From a virus, in the IMG/VR virus record IMGVR_UViG_3300030101_001243, positions 1-23,825 of that record: a DNA stretch of 23,825 bases. One strand, 5' to 3'. Positions 2,941 through 23,748 of the stretch are shown piece by piece (the stretch's first letter is position 1; every line of letters starts with the position of its first letter). The position numbers were made by a program, and so were the translations under genes. The notes under the pieces are model-generated. The model had not been told where the DNA came from. It saw only the letters and a list, made by a program, of their open reading frames with translations, and searched no databases.

Positions 2941-5900
2941 TTATTCTCTTGTGTTATTGACACTGTTATCTAATGGTGATGGTACATACACAACATTTAC
3001 AGCGTATAATTGTACAGCAGTTGTTGAGTTAGACGTTAATGTTATTGCTAAATAATAATCCCTTAATTGGTCACCAGATATACTCGCTTGTTCTGTTTGT
3101 ACCAGTATGTCGTCCGCTGATAGATTATCAGGTGTAGCTGAAAGAGTAAGAACCTTACGCCCATCAACAGACTGAACCCTTGCGGTTCCAGAAGACATAA
3201 TATTCACTAAATTATCACCATCAACTTTAAACACCTGAGCATTTGAGTTATTTAGACTAAATGGTAGGTCACTAATTCTTGTCTTGAATGTCACCGTAGC
3301 GCCATCGTTCGATGCTACCTCTCCAAGAACAATATTATTCTCACCCGAAGAGTCACCTGCTGTAACAATGCCTCTAGGTATCCTCTTGTAATACAAGCCT
3401 TCTTTCTCAGGTTCAAAGTCAGCCTTATTAATGGCTGCTGTGTGTTTTGATGTACGAAGAGCTAATGACCAATTAGAATCACCATCAGAACTAGTATTAC
3501 CCTCAAGGCTCAAGGCATTAAATGCTTTAATCATTGATGGGTTAGCCTTTGAAACGATACTAACAAAAGAATCTGCGTTAACATCATAGAATCTATTCCT
3601 AGTTTCGTTTACGTTGTGTCTGTACATGTCCCCGTCATTAAAGCTGAAGAATCTGTTATGTACATACTCGTAATGCTCTGGAATAAATGAGTATCTAGTC
3701 AACCAGAACCCCTTAGTTGTTCCGTATGCTATAGTATCACCATCCACTTCTCTAAGCGAAGTAACTGTAACTGTATCATCAGCTTGAGAGTTTGAACCGT
3801 CACCAGCAGAGTCACTATCTAAAAATTTATTCCCTAAATTAACCTCGCCACTCATGGGGTCAAAAACAGCCGTCCCTCTAAACCTTCCATCTTTAGACGT
3901 TACGTCAATAAGAAAACTTTTACCTTTCGTTATATCCTGTCTGTCAACTATAGCACTACCCTTTTCTTTTATATTATCAAGTATAATAACACCCCTATGA
4001 GTGGTTTCCCACACCAAATGATTAGCTATAGCTGGTCCTAATCCAGTGTAGTCCCACTTAATTACCTCCTTATCCCATGTGAGCTGACCATCGTTTTCAC
4101 CAGCTCTAGATGGCTTTATGTCTACGGTAAAATCTGTAGTTCCATCCGCCCAGTCTGGGCTTGTGCCGCTAAACTCATTACCCCCAATACTAATAGTTTT
4201 CGGAGTAAACTTTGTCATGGTTACTATGAACTCATTATTTTCAGGGTCTATACCGCAAGGCAGCTTGAATACAGCCCTGTTATTCGTGTAGTCAGAAAAC
4301 TCCCTCTCGAAGTAAGACTCAAGCTTGTTGTCGCTGATTGGTGTAATCTTGTTTCCTTGAATCTCAATAACCTTACCTGACTCAACGTCAGAGAAGAATA
4401 CTTTACCAAATCTCTTAACAACAGACTCGGGATTCCTCGAACATCCATAACCACCAGCGTAATACATTTCTTTCCCAAGAACCTGCTGAGATGTTACTAG
4501 CTGACCGTCTGAAGCACTTTGAATCAAAGTCCTTTCAAAAGGAATCAAAGCACACTTCTTTTCTTGAATCATCAACATAGACTCGTTCATATCTTCCAAG
4601 AATTGAATACTACCATTGTTTGGTGAGTAATCATTGAACGGGAATAAAGAAGGATTGAATGATGAAAGGTTTAGTCTTGAAGAATCAAGCACAAATGGCT
4701 CACTGTATGTAACCGATGAAATCCTCCTAATCTCTTGTTGGTCAGGGGTTTCTAAGTGAGGTCTACCAATGTCAGTAATCTCCGAGTCGAAGAAGTCACT
4801 AACCCTAGAGGATTCAACAATGAACTTTTCATAAGTTGCATCTTGAGGCTTAGTATGGTTTCTTTTTAGTGTTAATGAAGAAGCTGCTGGGCTAAAATCC
4901 TCAAGAACATTTACTAGCTGCTCTCTTACCTTGAAGTAAGCATCACCCTCCTCAATATTAATAACCCCATGCAGAAGCTCTTCCGTACCTATTGTTACTG
5001 ACGTAAGTGTAGTGGATACAACACCATCCACAAACAAGTTTGAGTCATGCAATATATATGTAAACCCTCCATTCTGTTCCTCAATCTTTCCAGCTATAAA
5101 AAAGTGACCACTTGCTGTAGAACCACCTTTTATACACCTGTCGCCAAGAAACAATTCCTCTTGAGAGAAAAATCTGTCATTATCTAAAACATCAATACTA
5201 AAGCTTGGTGATACTAAGTTGCTTCTGTCTCCTTGGTGAAATCTCCCAATTTGGTCGAGAGCTCCTGTGGGGTTATCAATAATATCATACTGTTGTCCTA
5301 TCTCGTAGTAAACCTTTTCCTCTAGATTTTTTTTAGGTGTGGCAATCTCGATAAGACATCTTTGCGAGAAGTAAGCGTCTCCCTTTATTACAGCAGACCT
5401 ACCAAAACCTGGGGTTCCGTTATCCTGAACTATTAAAAAGAACCCAGTCCTTCTGTATCTATTTCTTGAATTATTTTCTGCGGTACTACCTCCAGTTGTT
5501 TGGTCAACCAGTTCTACTGGATTGTTTTCATCATCAGCGTAATACCTATAACCAAGAACTCTAAATTCATGAAGTGGTCGTTGCAATGCTCCATTTTCAT
5601 CTTGATACTCAAGAACCCTAATTATATCCCCCTCTTGGAATTTGTAATCTATCAAAGCACCCTTACCATCCTTGTATGAGTTTGGCTTACCCTCAAGACC
5701 TCTAAGACTAAGTAGTATAGCCTCATCACTTGATGATACACCTGCATCCGTTACGGCTCTTTTTTTAGCATCATCACTTGCGCCTGGACTTAAAATATCA
5801 ATGAATGATTTTGCGTTAGGTAAACACGCCTCTGCAACAGTACACTGTAAAAATCTTTCATAGCTAGTATTCTTACTATACACTGGAGCCCACTTGGTTG

Positions 5901-8262
5901 CCCAGACTGGAGGCTCATGTGTTATGCGCATGTCCATTGTGGTCCTTCCGTTATTACCAAACCTTCCTGCCTGACCAAAATGAGGTACGTCTATACTCTG
6001 TATAGCTTGAACACCACTGCATCTATTTCGATGGTCATAGTAAACAATACCTAGTTCATGTGCAGCACCTGCCTTGAATGTCTTATTATCTAAATCATTA
6101 TTGAAAAGTAAAAACTCATTTACGACATCAAACTTTCTCAATGCATGATAAATAACATTGTTTGCGTGTGTACTATCAACCACATGCTGACCAAGAGCAT
6201 TTGTTAATTCTGAGTTTATAACAGCTTGAGTGTTTGCGTTGCTAAATTGTGTAAGTGTGCCATTTGAATGGGTTTCGATAGTTGAACCATTAGCTTCTAA
6301 CGATATATCAGTCATTCTGATTTGTAATACAAGCTTGTTGGTTTGCTGATTAAATGAAAAGTTTTCGATAGTAAAAACCAAAGACCCATCAAACCAAAGA
6401 CGAACTGTCCTATTAGTACTTCCACTTGACACTGCTGATGGTCTAAAAGGACTTCCGTTGAAGTTAGCACCATCCGTATTAAAGTATTGATACCTTGTGT
6501 TTAGTGACTCAACACGAACATTTGCAGTCTGACCAACAAGTGAATTACCAATGATTGCAGCAGCACTGGCAACATCTGTAGTATTGATAGTGCCTGAGGC
6601 AGTATAGTTCCAACCATCAACAGGTTTCAACCCAATGATACCACCATTTAAGTGAAGGTCCTCTTCAGTAGGACCTACAAATATACCACTAGTACCACCA
6701 ACATTACCATTGTCCAATAAGTTAAGGGTGTGTTCAATTCCGTTTATTGTTGCAGTTAAGCTAAACTTATTAGCAGAACTTCCAGACAGCGGATTTGTTG
6801 GATGTACAGCATTAATCGCTATTTCTTTAGCTTCAATACCGAAGCCAAGATTAAATTTTAAACCATCAAGGTCTGCATTAGCTAACTGTGACAAATCCAT
6901 TTCAACCGTAGTGCCAGCCCCCTGGTTAAACATAGTAATACCAGCTGACTCACCATTTAAGTATGTAGAATCCTGTATTGTACTAAAGCCCGCAGGACCT
7001 AAATTTCCAGCTTGTTGGAAAGTATATCCTCCAATCCCATCATATCCGCCAAGGACGCCTGATATTCCAAGACCAGATGGGTTCTTAAATGATGATGTGT
7101 AAAAGGTTGAAGCTACATCACCGTCTGCATCAAAAGACAGGTTTAACACTTGCCCCTTTGATATTCCACCAATCTGTTCTAAGCTTTCGGGATACCTTCC
7201 GTGTACTGGGTATGCGTGTACACTTGTATCTTCTAGGTTGTCAAACCCCTCAAGATAATTACCGTATACTAATCTGTTGTTCGTGAATGTTTGTGCTCTA
7301 GAAAGCCTAGGCACACCATCGAATATCTTGTTAACTTCTTCAGATGATATAGCAGTGTAAATACCATCATTCTTGAATACAAATTCTTGAGTGCCTGTGC
7401 CAACTTGATTGTCAACCTCACCTATCCTATAGAAGAATGTCTCGTTACCCTTTCTAGCAAGAATACGAATCTTAGAAACTGGACCATCTGAGTTTGTAAG
7501 GGTGAGTGTTAGAACATTGTTTATATTAGCACCAAAGTCTCTCTGAGGAGCGTTAAATGCAAAGTGCAAAGGGCTTGTCGCAAGCTTAGAGTACATAGAT
7601 ATAGCACTCACCTCACCGTCATCATAAACGTACTGATACGCAAACTGAAAAATATTCTCCTTCAGGTTGTTCTGTCTAACAGTCTCATCCGTTGAGAATG
7701 CGAACGTGATTGGAGTCTGTGGTGGTTGCTTACACGTAGTGATGTACTTGTCTACAATACTGTTTGTAGCTGAATTGATGTTAGCGTTGTAACCTCCATT
7801 AAGTGCTCTCGTAGCATTAATCTTTCTAGGCTCATTCCTGTCATCAGTGAAGTACAACAGGTGGTCTCCGTTCTTGTCAAATACAATATCAGCCTTTATG
7901 AACGAGTCACCCGAAAAGTTCAAGGCACGGCTCTCGTAAACCTTTTCATATTTATTCAGAGACGTAGAATATTTGTATATCCCATGCGAGGCTTTACTAT
8001 TGAATAAGAAGTAGTAAACACACTTACCAGCATCAGAACCAATACTACCAATGACTCTATTTGAACCAAGAGAAGGTATAGTGTCGGCAGTTGTTCTAGG
8101 GTCAATCTTCGTATTCCCTTTTACATTTTTTACAATACCTTGCTCCCCGTTAGCCTCATGTGAGATACGGATATTAAGAGCATCGGTCATCTCAATAGGC
8201 TTTACGAGTCTCTCATCCTCATCCTTGTTGAGATACTGGGGTATAATCTTATCAATCGCCAT
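2941..8262 (-). CDS. Tail nozzle/stabilisation protein (P22 gp10 / T7 gp12 / crAss muzzle type), 1773 aa
   Basis: This is likely the large protein that closes the short tail below the ring proteins. The N-terminus has the beta-propeller features of this class: CVYYFLFNSK (81-90), GIYKY (94-98), then a strand pair ending LLYFTDDRNEPRKIN (135-149), the YFTD-x-NxPRKIN signature of phage nozzle proteins. Later segments repeat such strands, for example GTTKGFWLTRYSF and NRFFSFNDGDMYRHN in the C-terminal third. Residues about 370-700 are a Gly/Ser/Asn/Thr-rich region that looks like inserted beta domains. At 1773 aa it is much longer than T7 gp12 (794 aa) or P22 gp10 (472 aa). The start overlaps the stop of the ring protein gene by 1 nt (TAATG). 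Its position directly after two connector-like genes supports the call. Confidence 0.85.
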   Translation of the reverse strand: MAIDKIIPQYLNKDEDERLVKPIEMTDALNIRISHEANGEQGIVKNVKGNTKIDPRTTADTIPSLGSNRVIGSIGSDAGKCVYYFLFNSKASHGIYKYSTSLNKYEKVYESRALNFSGDSFIKADIVFDKNGDHLLYFTDDRNEPRKINATRALNGGYNANINSATNSIVDKYITTCKQPPQTPITFAFSTDETVRQNNLKENIFQFAYQYVYDDGEVSAISMYSKLATSPLHFAFNAPQRDFGANINNVLTLTLTNSDGPVSKIRILARKGNETFFYRIGEVDNQVGTGTQEFVFKNDGIYTAISSEEVNKIFDGVPRLSRAQTFTNNRLVYGNYLEGFDNLEDTSVHAYPVHGRYPESLEQIGGISKGQVLNLSFDADGDVASTFYTSSFKNPSGLGISGVLGGYDGIGGYTFQQAGNLGPAGFSTIQDSTYLNGESAGITMFNQGAGTTVEMDLSQLANADLDGLKFNLGFGIEAKEIAINAVHPTNPLSGSSANKFSLTATINGIEHTLNLLDNGNVGGTSGIFVGPTEEDLHLNGGIIGLKPVDGWNYTASGTINTTDVASAAAIIGNSLVGQTANVRVESLNTRYQYFNTDGANFNGSPFRPSAVSSGSTNRTVRLWFDGSLVFTIENFSFNQQTNKLVLQIRMTDISLEANGSTIETHSNGTLTQFSNANTQAVINSELTNALGQHVVDSTHANNVIYHALRKFDVVNEFLLFNNDLDNKTFKAGAAHELGIVYYDHRNRCSGVQAIQSIDVPHFGQAGRFGNNGRTTMDMRITHEPPVWATKWAPVYSKNTSYERFLQCTVAEACLPNAKSFIDILSPGASDDAKKRAVTDAGVSSSDEAILLSLRGLEGKPNSYKDGKGALIDYKFQEGDIIRVLEYQDENGALQRPLHEFRVLGYRYYADDENNPVELVDQTTGGSTAENNSRNRYRRTGFFLIVQDNGTPGFGRSAVIKGDAYFSQRCLIEIATPKKNLEEKVYYEIGQQYDIIDNPTGALDQIGRFHQGDRSNLVSPSFSIDVLDNDRFFSQEELFLGDRCIKGGSTASGHFFIAGKIEEQNGGFTYILHDSNLFVDGVVSTTLTSVTIGTEELLHGVINIEEGDAYFKVREQLVNVLEDFSPAASSLTLKRNHTKPQDATYEKFIVESSRVSDFFDSEITDIGRPHLETPDQQEIRRISSVTYSEPFVLDSSRLNLSSFNPSLFPFNDYSPNNGSIQFLEDMNESMLMIQEKKCALIPFERTLIQSASDGQLVTSQQVLGKEMYYAGGYGCSRNPESVVKRFGKVFFSDVESGKVIEIQGNKITPISDNKLESYFEREFSDYTNNRAVFKLPCGIDPENNEFIVTMTKFTPKTISIGGNEFSGTSPDWADGTTDFTVDIKPSRAGENDGQLTWDKEVIKWDYTGLGPAIANHLVWETTHRGVIILDNIKEKGSAIVDRQDITKGKSFLIDVTSKDGRFRGTAVFDPMSGEVNLGNKFLDSDSAGDGSNSQADDTVTVTSLREVDGDTIAYGTTKGFWLTRYSFIPEHYEYVHNRFFSFNDGDMYRHNVNETRNRFYDVNADSFVSIVSKANPSMIKAFNALSLEGNTSSDGDSNWSLALRTSKHTAAINKADFEPEKEGLYYKRIPRGIVTAGDSSGENNIVLGEVASNDGATVTFKTRISDLPFSLNNSNAQVFKVDGDNLVNIMSSGTARVQSVDGRKVLTLSATPDNLSADDILVQTEQASISGDQLRDYYLAITLTSNSTTAVQLYAVNVVYVPSPLDNSVNNTRE

Positions 8263-15954: not shown

Positions 15955-16361
15955 TATACGCTCACATCATCGTTTATAGTGAATGTTCCAGCAAGCCATG
16001 TGGTAGCTTCCCCACTGACTAATGCCTCAATATCATAAACGTACTCACCAGCTGCGGCAGCAGCCATATTGGTATTGCTTCCAGTAATTAATAGGCGACC
16101 AGTAGTGCCTCCATCATTGAGAGAGGTTGTTAGTTGCTTAGTACCACTACTAGCTTCTGTACTGAGTATAATCGCAGTGTCACTAGTAATGTTTGTCCCG
16201 TCAGCGTTTAAAGCATTTCTTACCTCCATCTTAATGGTGTAACCTGAAAGGTTAAGAGCAGCTCCTGCGGAGTCCGTCACATCAATAGATAGTTTGAAGG
16301 TATCTCCCTTCCTGCATGTGATATCCACACGCTTTGAAATATCAAGATTTATTTTAGACAT
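15954..16361 (-). CDS. Small beta-sandwich virion protein (BppU N-terminal/Ig-like type), 135 aa
   Basis: Probably an adaptor or decoration protein next to the fibre. RVDITCRKGDTFKLSIDVTD (11-30) then LNLSGYTIKMEVRN resembles the N-terminal domain of phage baseplate upper proteins (BppU_N), where R-KGDTF...LxGYTxKMxVR forms the first sheet. The C-terminal EYVYDIEALVSGEATTWLAG is the matching closing strand pair. The whole protein is one such domain, with no fibre shaft, so it may link the 683-aa fibre to the capsid or tail. That is inference from adjacency and from the 1-nt overlap with the fibre gene. Its start overlaps the end of the portal gene by 8 nt. Confidence 0.7.
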   Translation of the reverse strand: MSKINLDISKRVDITCRKGDTFKLSIDVTDSAGAALNLSGYTIKMEVRNALNADGTNITSDTAIILSTEASSGTKQLTTSLNDGGTTGRLLITGSNTNMAAAAAGEYVYDIEALVSGEATTWLAGTFTINDDVSV

Positions 16362-18804
16362 CTCCTAGAATTTGATTTACTATATCTGTATTAGCGTCAG
16401 TCTGTTCTTCCATAACTGGACGCTCTCCTTTTCTTTGTGCTATAAGCTTAGACTGCTCAACAGCTTGCTTCTGTACCCTGCTGTCTTTTCTGTCTTCCTT
16501 AAGAACTTCAATCTTTTCCTTGAACTCTTGCTCATCAGTCTTGAATCCAAGTGATGCTTGAGCACGAATCATCTCAATCTCTTTCTTCATCTGGTGAAGG
16601 GCAGCAGCAACTTGAACATCTACCTGACCCCTAAGCTGCAACTTCTGAGCTTCTATCTGAGCCTCCATCTGCATCTTCTGAACCTCCATCTGAGCAGCAA
16701 CCTGCTGCGCTTGAGAGTTTGCCTGAGCCTGAGCCTGAATGTTTTGTTGTTGCATCTGCTGACGCATTTGCATTCTCTTCCTTCTCCTAATAGCAAGTAG
16801 CCTTTGAGCTTGGTCGATATCCTTAACCTCCCTAACAGCAATAGCATCCTCAAGGTCTATCTCCTTTTGTGCTAACGAGGCTTGAAGGTTTTGCTCTAGG
16901 AATATTCTATCCTCGTCGGACATGTCTCTAACAACTCTAATACCATAGTTGTACATAGGTATCTCGTTAAAGCTGCTAAGAATATCCATGCTCATCTCAC
17001 CAATAGCTTTACTGTAAACCCTATACAAGACAGAGTCAGTAGGTATTACCTGAAGACATTTTACAATATCAGAACAAACCTTCTTGTAAATAATTAAGCT
17101 AGCATTTGTTATATCGTAAAGGGCATTGTTGCCAGCGGCAAGTGCCTGCTGCCTTACACCAACAAGAGCATCACCCTTAGGTGTAGATGCATCCATGACT
17201 TCATTGATTCCCGTAGCGTCACGAATCATTCTAAGGTAGTGGTTGTACAATCCAATGTACTCGTTGATGTTTCTAATATTATTCTCAATAGAACGTATAG
17301 GAGGATTCTGGAATCCACCTTCTGGGTTTTTACTTCTATAGTAGAAGACACCCGTTTGTTCGTAAATGTCTTGAATGTCTAGCGGTTGTAGTTCACCACC
17401 CCTGCCGAGCTGTACATTCTCCAGCCCCTCGATGTCAACTAATATACCGTCAGGCTTCGCTTTAGCAATCGCCTGTTGTATCTTCAAGTGAGTAAGTTGG
17501 AGTTGGTCAGCAAAACCAATGACACCACTCACTAAAGACTTAGGCATCATCCTCCTCATGTTAGTACAAGACACACTATAAGACATCTTAGTCTTAGTTA
17601 AGTCGTGTATATTCTTAGGCATATTTGACTGAATGCCATAGTTAAATAGACAGTCGTAGCCTATAATAAAGCTACCACAGTACACCATCTGATTCTCCAT
17701 CTTGACTGGCTCTCTCTCGTAAACAGAATTTGGTGACTCCTTGTACTCAGAACCCTTGAAGTAGAATCCCATATTACCATACTGAGACTCTTTACTTTCA
17801 TAATATACACAGTCAACTGTTAAGAACTCAAAGTCCATAACGTCAACCAAGTAAGTATCATAACCATAATTAAAAGTTCCTGAAGCTGTTGAGTAGTCTC
17901 TTCTAGCAAATGCCTTTGAGTCATTATAACTCTTGTGCATCACAGACTTTGCTATCGCTTGATACTTCTCCTCTGAGATTTGGTCACCAGCTCTTCTCTT
18001 CAACTCCTGAATGCTAATCCTAGAAACATGACCAGCATAAACTATATCGCTTAAGTTTGGGTCCTCAGTGTAACTATGAATGAAGTTTACTGGGTCTATA
18101 TACCTAGTTACGATTCCGTAGTTAGGGTCGTTATCTCTTTTGACAACGCCCATACCACATACCACTAAGTCTTCAACATTACGTCTGAATATGTCTTGGT
18201 CAAAATCATTCCAGTCCAGCGTCAAGGATGTTGCCAACTGAGCAGCAATCTCTGAGCTAGTCTTGACGTTTTGGTCCATGAAGATTTCAGCCTCCTCTGT
18301 GGTATCTGGTAAAGAGTCTGGGTCTATGTTTGGTGTAAGACCAAGAGCCTTAGCTTCCATCAATAATTCCTTATCACCAATAGATGATTCTATCTCAGCC
18401 TTTCTTGTATCCTTTTCTTGCTTGCTAATAGGGTCTATAGCCTCTACCTTTGGGTATGGCTTTCTTGACAGGACTCTGTTAACAACTACCTTAACAAACT
18501 TAGGGACGATAGGTACTGGACTCCAGTCGAGGTTCAGTAGTGTACCATCACCATTGTTTGGGTCAAGAGAGTTCAGAATCTGTTTATAGATACTGGTGTC
18601 TTGTGTCCCGTTAGCGTAATCACGACTCTTTTCGAATTCGTGCCTTCTTCGGCTGTATAGGCTGGAGCTATCCTCCCCCTTTCCCCATTGCGCCTCTATC
18701 GCCTTTGCAAATTGCAAGCCATAGCTTTGACTCATCTTTTCCATTGGTGAAGCAAACGGGTCTGGGAATCCTGCCTTATTCGTATTTTTGCTTTTATAAC
18801 TCAT
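16354..18804 (-). CDS. Portal protein, 816 aa
   Basis: Forms the dodecameric DNA channel at the capsid vertex. It is identified by its place after TerL, its size, and typical portal features. FEKSRDYANGTQDTSIYKQI (57-76) is the usual entry helix and YxxGxQD motif. LDWSPVPIVPKFVKVVVNRV (92-111) then PYPKVEAID is the W-x-P-[VI]-P-[IV]-x-PKFV...V pattern of crAss-like portals. The middle carries wing and stem segments (DPVNFIHSYTEDPNLSD; DATGINEVMDASTPKGDALV). From about residue 673 the protein becomes a Gln/Met/Ala/Arg-rich coiled coil (to about 750), then a charged tail, a likely long barrel or internal extension. It has its own TATATTTG box 22 nt upstream and no Shine-Dalgarno. Confidence 0.9.
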   Translation of the reverse strand: MSYKSKNTNKAGFPDPFASPMEKMSQSYGLQFAKAIEAQWGKGEDSSSLYSRRRHEFEKSRDYANGTQDTSIYKQILNSLDPNNGDGTLLNLDWSPVPIVPKFVKVVVNRVLSRKPYPKVEAIDPISKQEKDTRKAEIESSIGDKELLMEAKALGLTPNIDPDSLPDTTEEAEIFMDQNVKTSSEIAAQLATSLTLDWNDFDQDIFRRNVEDLVVCGMGVVKRDNDPNYGIVTRYIDPVNFIHSYTEDPNLSDIVYAGHVSRISIQELKRRAGDQISEEKYQAIAKSVMHKSYNDSKAFARRDYSTASGTFNYGYDTYLVDVMDFEFLTVDCVYYESKESQYGNMGFYFKGSEYKESPNSVYEREPVKMENQMVYCGSFIIGYDCLFNYGIQSNMPKNIHDLTKTKMSYSVSCTNMRRMMPKSLVSGVIGFADQLQLTHLKIQQAIAKAKPDGILVDIEGLENVQLGRGGELQPLDIQDIYEQTGVFYYRSKNPEGGFQNPPIRSIENNIRNINEYIGLYNHYLRMIRDATGINEVMDASTPKGDALVGVRQQALAAGNNALYDITNASLIIYKKVCSDIVKCLQVIPTDSVLYRVYSKAIGEMSMDILSSFNEIPMYNYGIRVVRDMSDEDRIFLEQNLQASLAQKEIDLEDAIAVREVKDIDQAQRLLAIRRRKRMQMRQQMQQQNIQAQAQANSQAQQVAAQMEVQKMQMEAQIEAQKLQLRGQVDVQVAAALHQMKKEIEMIRAQASLGFKTDEQEFKEKIEVLKEDRKDSRVQKQAVEQSKLIAQRKGERPVMEEQTDANTDIVNQILGDV

Positions 18805-18857: not shown

Positions 18858-20966
18858 TTACTTATATCTTCGGAAGAAAACCTTCTCCTCAAAGTTAGCA
18901 ACCTTCTTCTTTTTCTTAACCTTTTGGGCAGCCAACAAAGCCAAGCCAGAGCTGATGGTAAGGTCAAACTTTGTCCTGTTGTCTATCTTAAATCCTATCC
19001 AATCTTCTAGCGTTCTATTGAAGTGCATCCTGCCTGGATTCCCCTCGTCGTCTGAACCAACATGGTTATGTATGTAGTCCTCAATGGCTGAGGCATGAGC
19101 TTGTATTACGTCTTGAGAGTTGGATGGTATACCCTTAGTCTTTACTGTCATTTGATTTTTAGAGGAGCTAAGATGAGCTGGTCTATCCATTACATAACCA
19201 TCGTAACCCCTTGATTCAAAGTACCTTACGATGCCATACTTGTTGTTCTCAATCAGTAGTGGATAGCCATAGAAGACTGCTGCCATCAGAACATCTTCAT
19301 AGAAGATACTAGCCATAGGTGGTCTACTCGCATACTCAGCGACGAACATGTTTGAAGCACCATCAAGATTGAACTTGTTATAAATATGGCATGCGCCTTT
19401 TGATGACCTACCGTCAACCGTAGCGTCAAGGTCATAGCTATCTACTCCACCACAACCAATGTGTGAATTAGGTGGGACTCTCTTGCCTCTTTGAGTCTTC
19501 ATCACACTCCTGTCTTCCTGAGACGGCGTCCAACAGATTCTCCATCTACCATTAGGGTCTGGATTGAATATAACCTTAGTGTCCTTCACACCGTTAGCCC
19601 ATTGGAAGTTTCCGACAACTACTGGACTAGGGAACAGAGCATCGTTGTATTCCATCTGCTCGTATATCTTCCCAATGTTGAAAAGGCTACCCTCTATACT
19701 ATCTCTGAACGCCTCATCAGTAGTGAACGGGAACTGACGAACTATCTCATTCATCTCCCTAGCATCATGCTTTACGGCATCCCTTTCATTCTTCAAGAAG
19801 CTTTTAGAGCCCATAGTCATCATCTCACCATCAAGTGTTTGTATAGGTGATGAGGGGTCTACAGTTATTGGGTTTCCGTGTATATCAAAGAATCCCTCCA
19901 GAGCTTCATAGGCAGGGATAAATAAACGATACAGACCTGAGGTAGTTCTACCATTTGCATTCCTCTTGTTTGTGTCAGAATCCTCCCACAGCTTTTTGTA
20001 CTCAGAGCCGCCCTTGTCTAAGGGATTTACCGTTGAGCCTACGAGTGCCTTCCCCACAACCCTACGACCAACAATTAAACACGTTCTCTCAATCCTCCAA
20101 GCTTCCCTGATGTCAGCAGGCTTCTCCCACTTACCAGCCTCATCCATGTATAGCATGTGCAGCTTCTCACCATCGTAAGCGTTGTTAGTGGTGTTCTTCC
20201 AGTTGAGTACCGTGTTAAGTGCGTCACCTACATTGGTGGTCTTATTGTTCTTTGTAATCCTCTTTGATGGCTCACGGAAGGCGAGCTCAACCCTTGGGTT
20301 TGTCGTACCGTCTTGAATTGGTTTGAAGAAGAATGGGTAGTTCCGAAACATCGAAACGCATTTCTTCATGAAGATATTCTCCTGAGCATCCTTACCAGTC
20401 TTCGACTGAATGCCAAGAAGTTTGTCTTTAACTTGACTAGCTTCATTAACAAGGACAGAAGCGCAGATATTAGTATAACCAGACCTACGACACTTAGTGT
20501 AAAGCTGCCCAATACAACGCGGGTCAACTTCGCAAGCAGCCATGTGAAGAAATATATCTCTTTGGAACTTGAGGTAAGAGGGGAACCCAATATCAATTTT
20601 GCTCCACTGTAAGAACATGTAGTGCCTCCCAGTGATAAAAGTAGGTACACCCTGATTGTAAAACCAAAAACCTTCACTACGCCTTCTAAACTCCTCCTCG
20701 ATATAAGGACGGAACTTCTCTCGAAACTCCTTTGGAGTCTGCTGCCACTCGTCCATGCTTCTAATACGGGACAACTCCTGTGGCATAGATACCCTTCTCC
20801 ACACTTGCATACTTGTCTCCAAGTCTTCACCTGAGATTCCCGACTTTGGGGTCTTTGGTAAGCCAATGAGAAGGCTGCCGATTTCCACGATATCTCCGAG
20901 CGTACCCTTGGGACAAACCTTAATAACCTTGTCATCATAACCCTCTACATCTACTAGATTACTCAT
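18858..20966 (-). CDS. terL: Terminase large subunit, 702 aa
   Basis: This is the DNA-packaging motor: an ATPase plus the nuclease that cuts concatemeric DNA. The ATPase half shows a deviant P-loop KCRRSGYT (158-165), with the lysine at the first position as in lambda gpA rather than GKT/GKS. Walker B LHMLYMDEA follows (269-277; Asp275, Glu276), then the coupling motif GSTVN (310-314). The RNase H-like nuclease half has GCGGVDSYDLDAT (504-516; Asp509), Glu573 in LIENNKYG, and Asp668 in RTKFDLTISSGLALLA, matching the three-acid nuclease centre. The C-terminus is Lys-rich. The VDxYDxD and ENNKYG forms are like those of crAss-like phage terminases. The start overlaps the 96-aa gene by 4 nt (ATGA). 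Confidence 0.95.
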   Translation of the reverse strand: MSNLVDVEGYDDKVIKVCPKGTLGDIVEIGSLLIGLPKTPKSGISGEDLETSMQVWRRVSMPQELSRIRSMDEWQQTPKEFREKFRPYIEEEFRRRSEGFWFYNQGVPTFITGRHYMFLQWSKIDIGFPSYLKFQRDIFLHMAACEVDPRCIGQLYTKCRRSGYTNICASVLVNEASQVKDKLLGIQSKTGKDAQENIFMKKCVSMFRNYPFFFKPIQDGTTNPRVELAFREPSKRITKNNKTTNVGDALNTVLNWKNTTNNAYDGEKLHMLYMDEAGKWEKPADIREAWRIERTCLIVGRRVVGKALVGSTVNPLDKGGSEYKKLWEDSDTNKRNANGRTTSGLYRLFIPAYEALEGFFDIHGNPITVDPSSPIQTLDGEMMTMGSKSFLKNERDAVKHDAREMNEIVRQFPFTTDEAFRDSIEGSLFNIGKIYEQMEYNDALFPSPVVVGNFQWANGVKDTKVIFNPDPNGRWRICWTPSQEDRSVMKTQRGKRVPPNSHIGCGGVDSYDLDATVDGRSSKGACHIYNKFNLDGASNMFVAEYASRPPMASIFYEDVLMAAVFYGYPLLIENNKYGIVRYFESRGYDGYVMDRPAHLSSSKNQMTVKTKGIPSNSQDVIQAHASAIEDYIHNHVGSDDEGNPGRMHFNRTLEDWIGFKIDNRTKFDLTISSGLALLAAQKVKKKKKVANFEEKVFFRRYK

Positions 20967-21253
20967 TTAGAAAATTTCTCTGCAAACCCTCCTGAATAGT
21001 CTTTGGCATCCTCAATGGAGCCGTTAGCTTGTAAGTCTTTGACCATCTGCTCCAGCCTCTGTCTCTCAACGAGAAGCTCCTTGCAGTCAATCGCGGTCTG
21101 CTTGATTGATTGTAACTCTGCCTTTCTTTGCGTACCACCAGCTTCTGGGTCAACAGGCTTTCTGACCTCATCAATCATGTTATTGATTGCCACCTCCATA
21201 GACTTCATAAGTCTTTTGGCTGCTGATGTTGTGGTGAACTTAGTTGACGACAT
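20963..21253 (-). CDS. Small coiled-coil protein upstream of TerL, 96 aa (possible small terminase)
   Basis: Not recognised with certainty. It is helical and charged: RLMKSMEVAINNMIDEVRKP (14-33), an Asp/Pro/Gly linker, then AELQSIKQTAIDCKELLVER (45-64) continuing as a coiled coil to about residue 75, and a short disordered tail. Its place immediately before terL, with a 4-nt ATGA overlap, is where a small terminase subunit is usually encoded. Its size is at the low end for that role, and no helix-turn-helix is obvious. A capsid-assembly or chaperone cofactor is an alternative. The start overlaps the GroES-like gene by 14 nt. Confidence 0.5.
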   Translation of the reverse strand: MSSTKFTTTSAAKRLMKSMEVAINNMIDEVRKPVDPEAGGTQRKAELQSIKQTAIDCKELLVERQRLEQMVKDLQANGSIEDAKDYSGGFAEKFSK

Positions 21254-21827
21254 AGCTGATGTTATCTGACAACATACGATAAACTATCGTGCCGTCATCA
21301 AGCTTCATCTTATAGTCTCTGTCCTTATCAAAACCCACAGTGTCTCCAGCCTTTACGCCCTGTGCGACGAGGTCGGGATGAGGCATGAACATCTTAGCCT
21401 CCTTTTCGTATTCGACATCACTAACATCTAGGTCAACAATGATTCCAGATTCAGTAACGTCCTCAACAGACTCTACCTCTATAGGTTGTACGAAGACCCA
21501 ACCAGCAAGCATGTGTAGCTCACCATCGGAATCTCTGTATGCAATAGCATGGCTTTGAGTGGTCTCCCTATCATCGTACAATACAATGTACTTGTTGTCA
21601 CCAAGAGATAAACTTTTACTAATAGTGACGTGGTGATGGAAGAACAGTGTATCTCCCTTCTTCACGCCAGTGTCGTAAATTAATGGTGCGCTAAGAACTT
21701 CGCCATAGCATATCCTGTGGTCGAACTCGTTGAACCTAGTATCTAAAAATAATTCTTTTCCCCCGACAGTGACCTTGTCATCTGTCTTCTTAGGGACCTG
21801 TACAATAAAGTGTCTTAAAGCTTTCAT
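21240..21827 (-). CDS. Two-domain GroES-like co-chaperonin, 195 aa
   Basis: Probably a phage co-chaperonin that caps host GroEL to help fold virion proteins, as T4 gp31 does for its capsid protein. Domain 1 (about 1-110) has an N-terminal strand HFIVQVPKK, a loop, then YGEVLSAP (41-48) and GVKKGDTLFFHHHVTI (54-69). These match the GEVLAVG and VKVGDxVxF strands of GroES. Domain 2 (about 111-195) aligns more fully: VFVQPIEV (111-118), ESGIIV (126-131, where GroES has GGIVL), GVKAGDTVGF (157-166) and YRMLSDNISYVV (183-194), matching the IxxESDILAIV ending. Ordinary GroES has one such domain of about 95 aa. The tandem form recalls plastid Cpn20. It overlaps the genes on both sides (4 and 14 nt). 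Confidence 0.8.
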   Translation of the reverse strand: MKALRHFIVQVPKKTDDKVTVGGKELFLDTRFNEFDHRICYGEVLSAPLIYDTGVKKGDTLFFHHHVTISKSLSLGDNKYIVLYDDRETTQSHAIAYRDSDGELHMLAGWVFVQPIEVESVEDVTESGIIVDLDVSDVEYEKEAKMFMPHPDLVAQGVKAGDTVGFDKDRDYKMKLDDGTIVYRMLSDNISYVVN

Positions 21828-23319: not shown

Positions 23320-23748
23320 ATGGGAAGAAGTCATCCAAGTAGAAAAAGACGGGACTTCAGTAAGTTGAATAACAGGTATGTCAACAAGAACTATTTAAAG
23401 AAGTGGTCTCTTGTTACCAAGGACATATCTAGCAACTACGGGGTATCTCAGACAGAACTTGAGTTCATGTTGTTTATATATGACTACGAGTTTTTCACTG
23501 TGTCACACGTGGCAAAGGTATTGAAGAGGAGTAAGAAGAAGCTATACGACAGAACTGTGTTACCACTTAAAAGGGAGGGACATATAGAAACGGTGTATCA
23601 CGGAAAGGGGGTGGATGCATATGTCGATGCGCTGTTCCACGAGCGAGGTGTAAACAATGAAAACAGACTTAGTCTGTCACAGAAAGGGAGGTTGCTTGTT
23701 CAGCGGGTGTATAGAAAGCTAGAGGGTGGGGAACCTATTAACTCTTAA
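23320..23748 (+). CDS. Winged-helix (MarR-like) DNA-binding protein, 142 aa
   Basis: Likely transcription regulator. The N-terminus is very basic (MGRSHPSRKRRDFSKLNNRY), followed by YLKKWSLVTKDISSNYGVSQ and an LEFMLFIYD helix. The helix-turn-helix spans about 59-88 (FTVSHVAKVLKRSKKKLYDR then LPLKREGHIE), and the wing follows with VYHGKG. NRLSLSQKGRLLVQRVYRKL (115-134) is the closing strand-helix of MarR-like proteins (LSxKGxxLV). The length fits that family. It is the only complete plus-strand gene and is divergent from the structural block, with 29 nt between starts. That position suggests it controls itself and the late block, though early or middle gene control is equally possible. No ligand-binding extension is visible. 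Confidence 0.8.
   Translation: MGRSHPSRKRRDFSKLNNRYVNKNYLKKWSLVTKDISSNYGVSQTELEFMLFIYDYEFFTVSHVAKVLKRSKKKLYDRTVLPLKREGHIETVYHGKGVDAYVDALFHERGVNNENRLSLSQKGRLLVQRVYRKLEGGEPINS

Follow-up and report, generated by a model that had tools for sequence, protein, structure and literature searches.

The window, by which we mean the whole 23.8-kb record (23,825 nucleotides) that was analysed, stems from a marine phage and encodes a 195-residue protein of which both halves are, in predicted structures, GroES-type barrels. We read this protein as a Cpn20-type tandem co-chaperonin that would act on the host GroEL through its second domain, maybe in mixed seven-domain rings, and place the probability of this reading at roughly 0.6.

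The tandem gene and its operon

The following genes were assigned in this part of the window.

21240..21827, minus strand: tandem GroES-fold gene (open reading frame, PHROG 13932 profile and AlphaFold2 model)
20963..21253, minus strand: 96-aa gene between the tandem gene and the terminase, overlapping both
18858..20966, minus strand: terminase large subunit (PHROG 6681, E 7.8e-200)
16354..18804, minus strand: portal protein (PHROG 6547, E 2.9e-193)

Open reading frame calls on the minus strand of the window ran the tandem gene from ATG to TAA; the preliminary description had its position and its length of 195 residues exactly and had left out the strand. The gene shares 4 bases with the upstream gene at its start and 14 with the 96-aa gene at its stop, and the 96-aa gene in turn overlaps the large terminase gene by 4 bases. 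The earlier placement just ahead of the packaging genes holds, with this one gene intervening before the large terminase. Comparison with five near relatives resulted in a dN/dS of approximately 0.11–0.17 (dN 0.016–0.034, dS 0.13–0.20), with dN below dS in domain 1 and domain 2 alike. The tandem gene is under purifying selection and is a real gene of a tailed phage, not a chance reading frame, as its full-length relatives in IMG/VR and the low dN/dS attest.

The gene order in the window was tandem gene, 96-aa gene, terminase, portal and then virion proteins, and the order of this overlapping operon with terminase and portal was the same in phi38:1, phi18:3 and MW202828. A similarly sized and placed small gene is present in phi18:3 and MW202828 and absent in phi38:1, in which the terminase reading frame is longer with no small gene ahead of it. 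Pfam and PHROG searches returned no confident family for the 96-aa product, which is small and charged and has the position of a small terminase subunit. Further along, at 2941–8262, the window encodes a virion protein of 1773 residues (PHROG 14478) that matches the C-terminal domain of the crAss-like phage muzzle below threshold (E 0.001), pointing to a crAss-like podovirus virion. Towards its right end the window has only one plus-strand gene of appreciable size (23320–23748), which encodes 142 residues that match PHROG 17028 weakly and resemble a winged-helix regulator.

The tandem gene adjoined the terminase in every annotated record examined. This favours the main rival to the Cpn20-like reading, namely that the protein is a repurposed GroES-derived factor for head assembly or packaging that works with terminase or portal, the two-barrel body serving as a scaffold and the co-chaperonin role being gone or minor. 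We regard this as unlikely. In the region of phi18:3 that was viewed, the neighbouring structural proteins were annotated from virion MS/MS while the tandem protein was annotated by similarity only, which counts against such a factor.

Two GroES barrels in one chain

Modelling with AlphaFold2, with an alignment of 64 family members as input, resulted in a whole-chain model of pLDDT 87.8 and pTM 0.81, which was divided as follows.

21519..21827, minus strand: domain 1, GroES barrel, approximately residues 1–103 (separate AlphaFold2 model and structure matches)
21243..21518, minus strand: domain 2, GroES barrel, approximately residues 104–195 (profile and structure matches)

The best PDB match of the whole-chain model, by Foldseek and by VIA-align, was Chlamydomonas Cpn20 (7ekq_R; residues 1–195, Z 10.4, 166 aligned, rmsd 3.9 Å), which ranked ahead of any single-domain GroES. 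Cpn20, proposed earlier as the two-domain parallel, was accordingly the nearest solved architecture to the whole chain. The model suggests that the tandem barrels are arranged head to tail approximately as neighbouring lid subunits of the Cpn20 type, the geometry being only rough at an rmsd of 3.9 Å. That this arrangement is kept along the whole chain argues against an assembly factor.

Domain 2 was recognized by both sequence and structure. Its profile matched bacterial GroES with hhalign at 98.3% and the phage single-domain GroES profile at 98%, and its VIA-align Z reached approximately 9 with several GroES and 8.1 and 7.2 with T4 gp31 (2cgt and 1g31). When the family profile was searched against the PDB, GroES chains were matched by the C-terminal half only, at best 2.6e-8. 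This match required the family profile, as phmmer with the single tandem sequence found nothing in the PDB above chance level.

Domain 1 was modelled alone at a pLDDT of 92.2, and the 15 best VIA-align chains were all GroES or Cpn10 (Z 5.7–7.7), headed by 8wuc_a (Z 7.7, rmsd 2.7, 80 of 94 aligned) and including T4 gp31 at Z 5.7; GroES-like domains of dehydrogenases followed after these 15. VIA-align was run on the same candidates as Foldseek, which reported nothing significant for domain 1 alone. Since Z values of 5.7–7.7 could by themselves reflect a common arrangement, we rely on the consistency of the match list together with the register in hhalign. In the latter, domain 1 matched phage single-domain GroES at 82% in the correct register, bacterial GroES at 21% and an unrelated control profile at 0.1%. 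A weak match (E 0.003) was also observed between the single-domain GroES profile and domain 1 of the phi18:3 tandem protein, and the two domains of the window protein matched each other at 64% in hhalign. Domain 1 would thus be a GroES barrel mainly on structural grounds, with moderate support from sequence. The GroES beta-barrel was found in the predicted structures of both domains; neither a different fold in one half nor a match confined to one half, which had been named beforehand as grounds for rejection, was observed. The claim of two GroES barrels in one chain is upheld, for domain 1 by structure and for domain 2 by sequence and structure.

Like the window protein, plastid Cpn20, Cpn21 and Cpn23 carry two tandem Cpn10 domains head to tail. 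Identity between Cpn20 and the window protein is however only approximately 14%, and the latter is phage-encoded with a short roof region. While Cpn20 consists of two GroES-like domains (PMC5780408), the window protein carries the GroES loop motif in domain 2 only. Judged from sequence, the tandem protein likely arose independently of Cpn20, by duplication or fusion. T4 gp31 and RB49 CocO are phage co-chaperonins with a GroES barrel similar to the domains of the window protein, but they have one domain, form heptamers and share 8–9% identity with it.

The two halves are unequal

All motifs quoted in the preliminary description were found: the first half contains GEVLSAP and GVKKGDTLFF, the second SGIIV, GVKAGDTVGF and SDNISYVV. 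The loops of the two domains are as follows.

21435..21455, minus strand: domain 2 mobile-loop-like motif TESGIIV, residues 125–131, within the low-confidence stretch 121–140
21699..21794, minus strand: domain 1 loop region, predicted ordered beta hairpin, residues 12–43, VGGKELFLDTRFNEFDHR (AlphaFold2 models and alignment)

The domain 2 motif VTESGIIV sits in a stretch of low pLDDT and matches the GroES mobile loop, for which the consensus is KTxGGIxIPD in bacterial GroES and KTxSGLxLS in phage single-domain GroES. A flexible loop with a hydrophobic motif was found in domain 2 only, and VTESGIIV is a putative GroEL-binding motif on the strength of this resemblance. The loop of domain 1 was instead predicted to be an ordered hairpin with a conserved, non-canonical sequence of its own, GGKELFLDTRFNEFDHR. 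The expectation of a mobile loop in each barrel is thereby borne out for domain 2 and fails for domain 1, and the lack of a canonical mobile loop in domain 1 counts against the Cpn20-type reading.

Domain 1 also carries a His-His pair, H64-H65, following the GD-strand, that is near-invariant in most of the family, not found in GroES and gone from the phi18:3 group. Residues 64–67 (HHHV) correspond to 21627–21638 of the window, and the family forms read HHHVT or HHNVF. It is possible that the pair binds a metal or a client. Conservation of the domain 1 loop and of H64-H65 is not explained by GroES, and its strength favours the assembly factor over the Cpn20-type reading.

The domain 2 motif, the pattern for which was defined after the loops had been viewed, was carried by 19 of the 26 sequences from the window clade and by none of the 38 other members. 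The tandem proteins of phi38:1, Calle and phi18:3 have domain 2 loops without it, and in a clade of 187-aa proteins the loop is shortened from approximately 32 to 23 residues. The shortening again suits an assembly factor, while retention of the canonical motif in domain 2 of the window clade speaks against one. At the position of the roof hairpin of bacterial GroES, each domain has just a short stretch. T4 gp31 is without the roof as well, an absence that gives the capsid protein more space.

Family and distribution

The profile of PHROG 13932, named co-chaperonin GroES, matched residues 1–193 of the 195 (E 4.5e-31) and gave full-length matches in 64 of 64 aligned family members. Relatives in IMG/VR were 52–99% identical over the full length and numbered at least 410 in a profile scan; the 76 distinct complete reading frames extracted were all of two-domain size (187–200 aa). 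Among cultured phages, Cellulophaga phi38:1 gp089, Calle gp013 and phi18:3 gp096 belong to the same family at full length and in the same place ahead of the terminase, and are named co-chaperonin GroES or chaperonin cpn10 in GenBank. Chaperonin cpn10 is listed among the core proteins of the Pervagoviridae, a phage family (PMC8776804).

Against Pfam Cpn10 (PF00166) the tandem protein scored 18 bits, below the curated cut-off of 21.1, and did so through domain 2 only (residues 106–180, E 0.003). Many relatives exceeded the cut-off and 48 of the 64 family members matched at E up to 1, so that membership of PF00166 is by homology through relatives and not by direct score. NCBIfam gave no match to the window protein.

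The preliminary statement that known phage co-chaperonins have one domain has to be corrected, as the tandem family is already deposited as co-chaperonin GroES (Cellulophaga phages, PHROG 13932). The family itself is known, named and widespread, and is not unique to the window phage. No description of a tandem or two-domain phage GroES was found in the literature searched, most subscription papers lying outside it. Nor does this literature appear to describe the two-domain architecture, the division between the loops or the presence of the tandem protein alongside a complete GroEL/GroES system of the phage.

Chaperonin genes in related phages

Chaperonin genes were surveyed in 31 records that carry the tandem gene. 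GroEL was encoded in 12 of these, each of which also encoded a single-domain GroES within approximately 3.5 kb of GroEL while keeping the tandem gene beside the terminase. Both genes are annotated in phi38:1 (GroES gp007) and MW202828 (GroES UOF82489.1). These single-domain phage proteins have the GroES fold in common with the window protein, but are encoded separately beside a phage GroEL, carry the canonical loop and were not detected in the window-clade genomes searched. Unlike the window clade, phi38:1, Calle and phi18:3 have a single-domain GroES, and phi38:1 and Calle a GroEL as well; in the phi18:3 group and a 72.8-kb contig (L101) the tandem protein and a single-domain GroES were found and GroEL was not detected. 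Three states are therefore seen among the relatives, tandem only, tandem with GroES, and tandem with GroES and GroEL. The genomes of MW202828, phi38:1 and relatives (L159, L161-L171, L191-L208), approximately 60–73 kb in size, often hold three chaperonin genes. Environmental relatives of phi38:1 are reported to encode GroEL homologues in 36 genomes (PMC5332604), and phi38:1 GroEL was among the proteins detected by mass spectrometry during infection (PMC13288928).

Three window-clade genomes (L011, 61.2 kb; L013, 60.9 kb; L025, 58.9 kb) have direct terminal repeats of 123–141 bases, as in complete assemblies. In these no GroEL was found with Pfam, in a run that had a positive control, or with a phage GroEL profile run without a control of its own. 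A second GroES was likewise not found, the phage GroES profile, for which positive controls matched at 1e-26 or better, hitting only domain 2 of the tandem protein. As the window is a 23.8-kb record, absence of GroEL and GroES in its phage is inferred from these relatives. The possibility that the window's own phage supplies a GroEL as partner is unsupported, since neither search detected one in the window clade. With no detectable GroEL or single-domain GroES in this clade, the tandem protein would most likely serve as a cap for GroEL of the host, in agreement with the partner originally proposed.

In the phylum to which the Winogradskyella MAG belongs, a normal GroES is accompanied in many genomes by a further, diverged match to Cpn10, in frames of 127–266 aa (for example G009 contig 27, 66907–67230).

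The view of the tandem protein as the phage's GroES needs qualification for related phages, in which it occurs together with a separately encoded single-domain GroES and, in many cases, with a GroEL of the phage. In relatives with a dedicated GroES the tandem protein persists although its domain 2 lacks the motif, so roles other than GroEL binding may be conserved as well, and retention of the protein in phages that already own both GroEL and GroES is a further point for the assembly factor. The tree separates the window clade from the other tandem-protein clades; the association of loop loss with a separate GroES is essentially one split in this tree, a clade correlation and not many independent events, and is suggestive only.

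Proposed mechanism

In the Cpn20-type reading the two barrels of one chain would occupy the places of two adjacent subunits in the lid of the chaperonin. The tandem protein would be produced late, alongside terminase and portal, and in the window clade would cap host GroEL late in infection, with the flexible loop of domain 2 (VTESGIIV) contacting GroEL and the ordered loop of domain 1 differing from it. GroEL capped in this manner would serve to fold at least one virion protein, with the capsid or fibre proteins proposed earlier as putative clients. That the protein binds GroEL, and with what ring composition, timing and client, is in each case inferred.

With two domains in every chain, tandem proteins can complete a seven-fold lid only with a single-domain partner; the alternative is a mismatch of six or eight domains. 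Seven domains could be made up of three tandem chains and one single-domain GroES, which would come from the host in the window clade and from the phage itself in relatives. In plants, the native lid is probably a mixed ring of this kind, its seven domains drawn from Cpn10 and Cpn20 (PMC5780408). A sub-variant of this explanation, possible but on balance doubtful, is a homo-oligomeric lid of three or four tandem chains that is mismatched in symmetry with GroEL and has no single-domain partner. Cpn20 homo-oligomers and GroES concatamers of six or eight domains do work with seven-fold chaperonins (PMC5780408), and no second phage GroES was detectable in the window-clade genomes; set against this, host GroES is presumably available in the cell, and a single-domain partner is encoded by most of the relatives sampled from outside the window clade.

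A decoy that blocks host GroEL/GroES, redirecting or shutting down host folding, is very improbable. With a single GroEL-binding loop in each chain avidity would be reduced and a poisoned lid is conceivable, but the location in a late virion operon and the long-term conservation alongside phage GroEL and GroES fit assistance better than inhibition.

A more far-reaching and speculative form of the Cpn20-type reading, unlikely to hold in all its parts, is that the chloroplast solution evolved independently in phage. The mixed lid of three tandem chains and one single-domain GroES would bind GroEL through domain 2 and hold a capsid client through domain 1, and possession of a GroES gene by the phage would decide whether the mobile loop is retained or lost.

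Significance

Phage co-chaperonins showed that a virus can retune the folding chamber of its host for a capsid protein, and the known models, T4 gp31 and RB49 CocO, are single-domain heptamers. A two-domain phage version reopens the question of symmetry posed by Cpn20 in cultivable pairs of phage and bacterium, and in the Cellulophaga phages phi38:1 and phi18:3 deletion of the gene is possible. The three states observed among relatives form a natural comparison for the purpose of the second domain, and how a double lid sits on a seven-fold chaperonin ring becomes a testable question.
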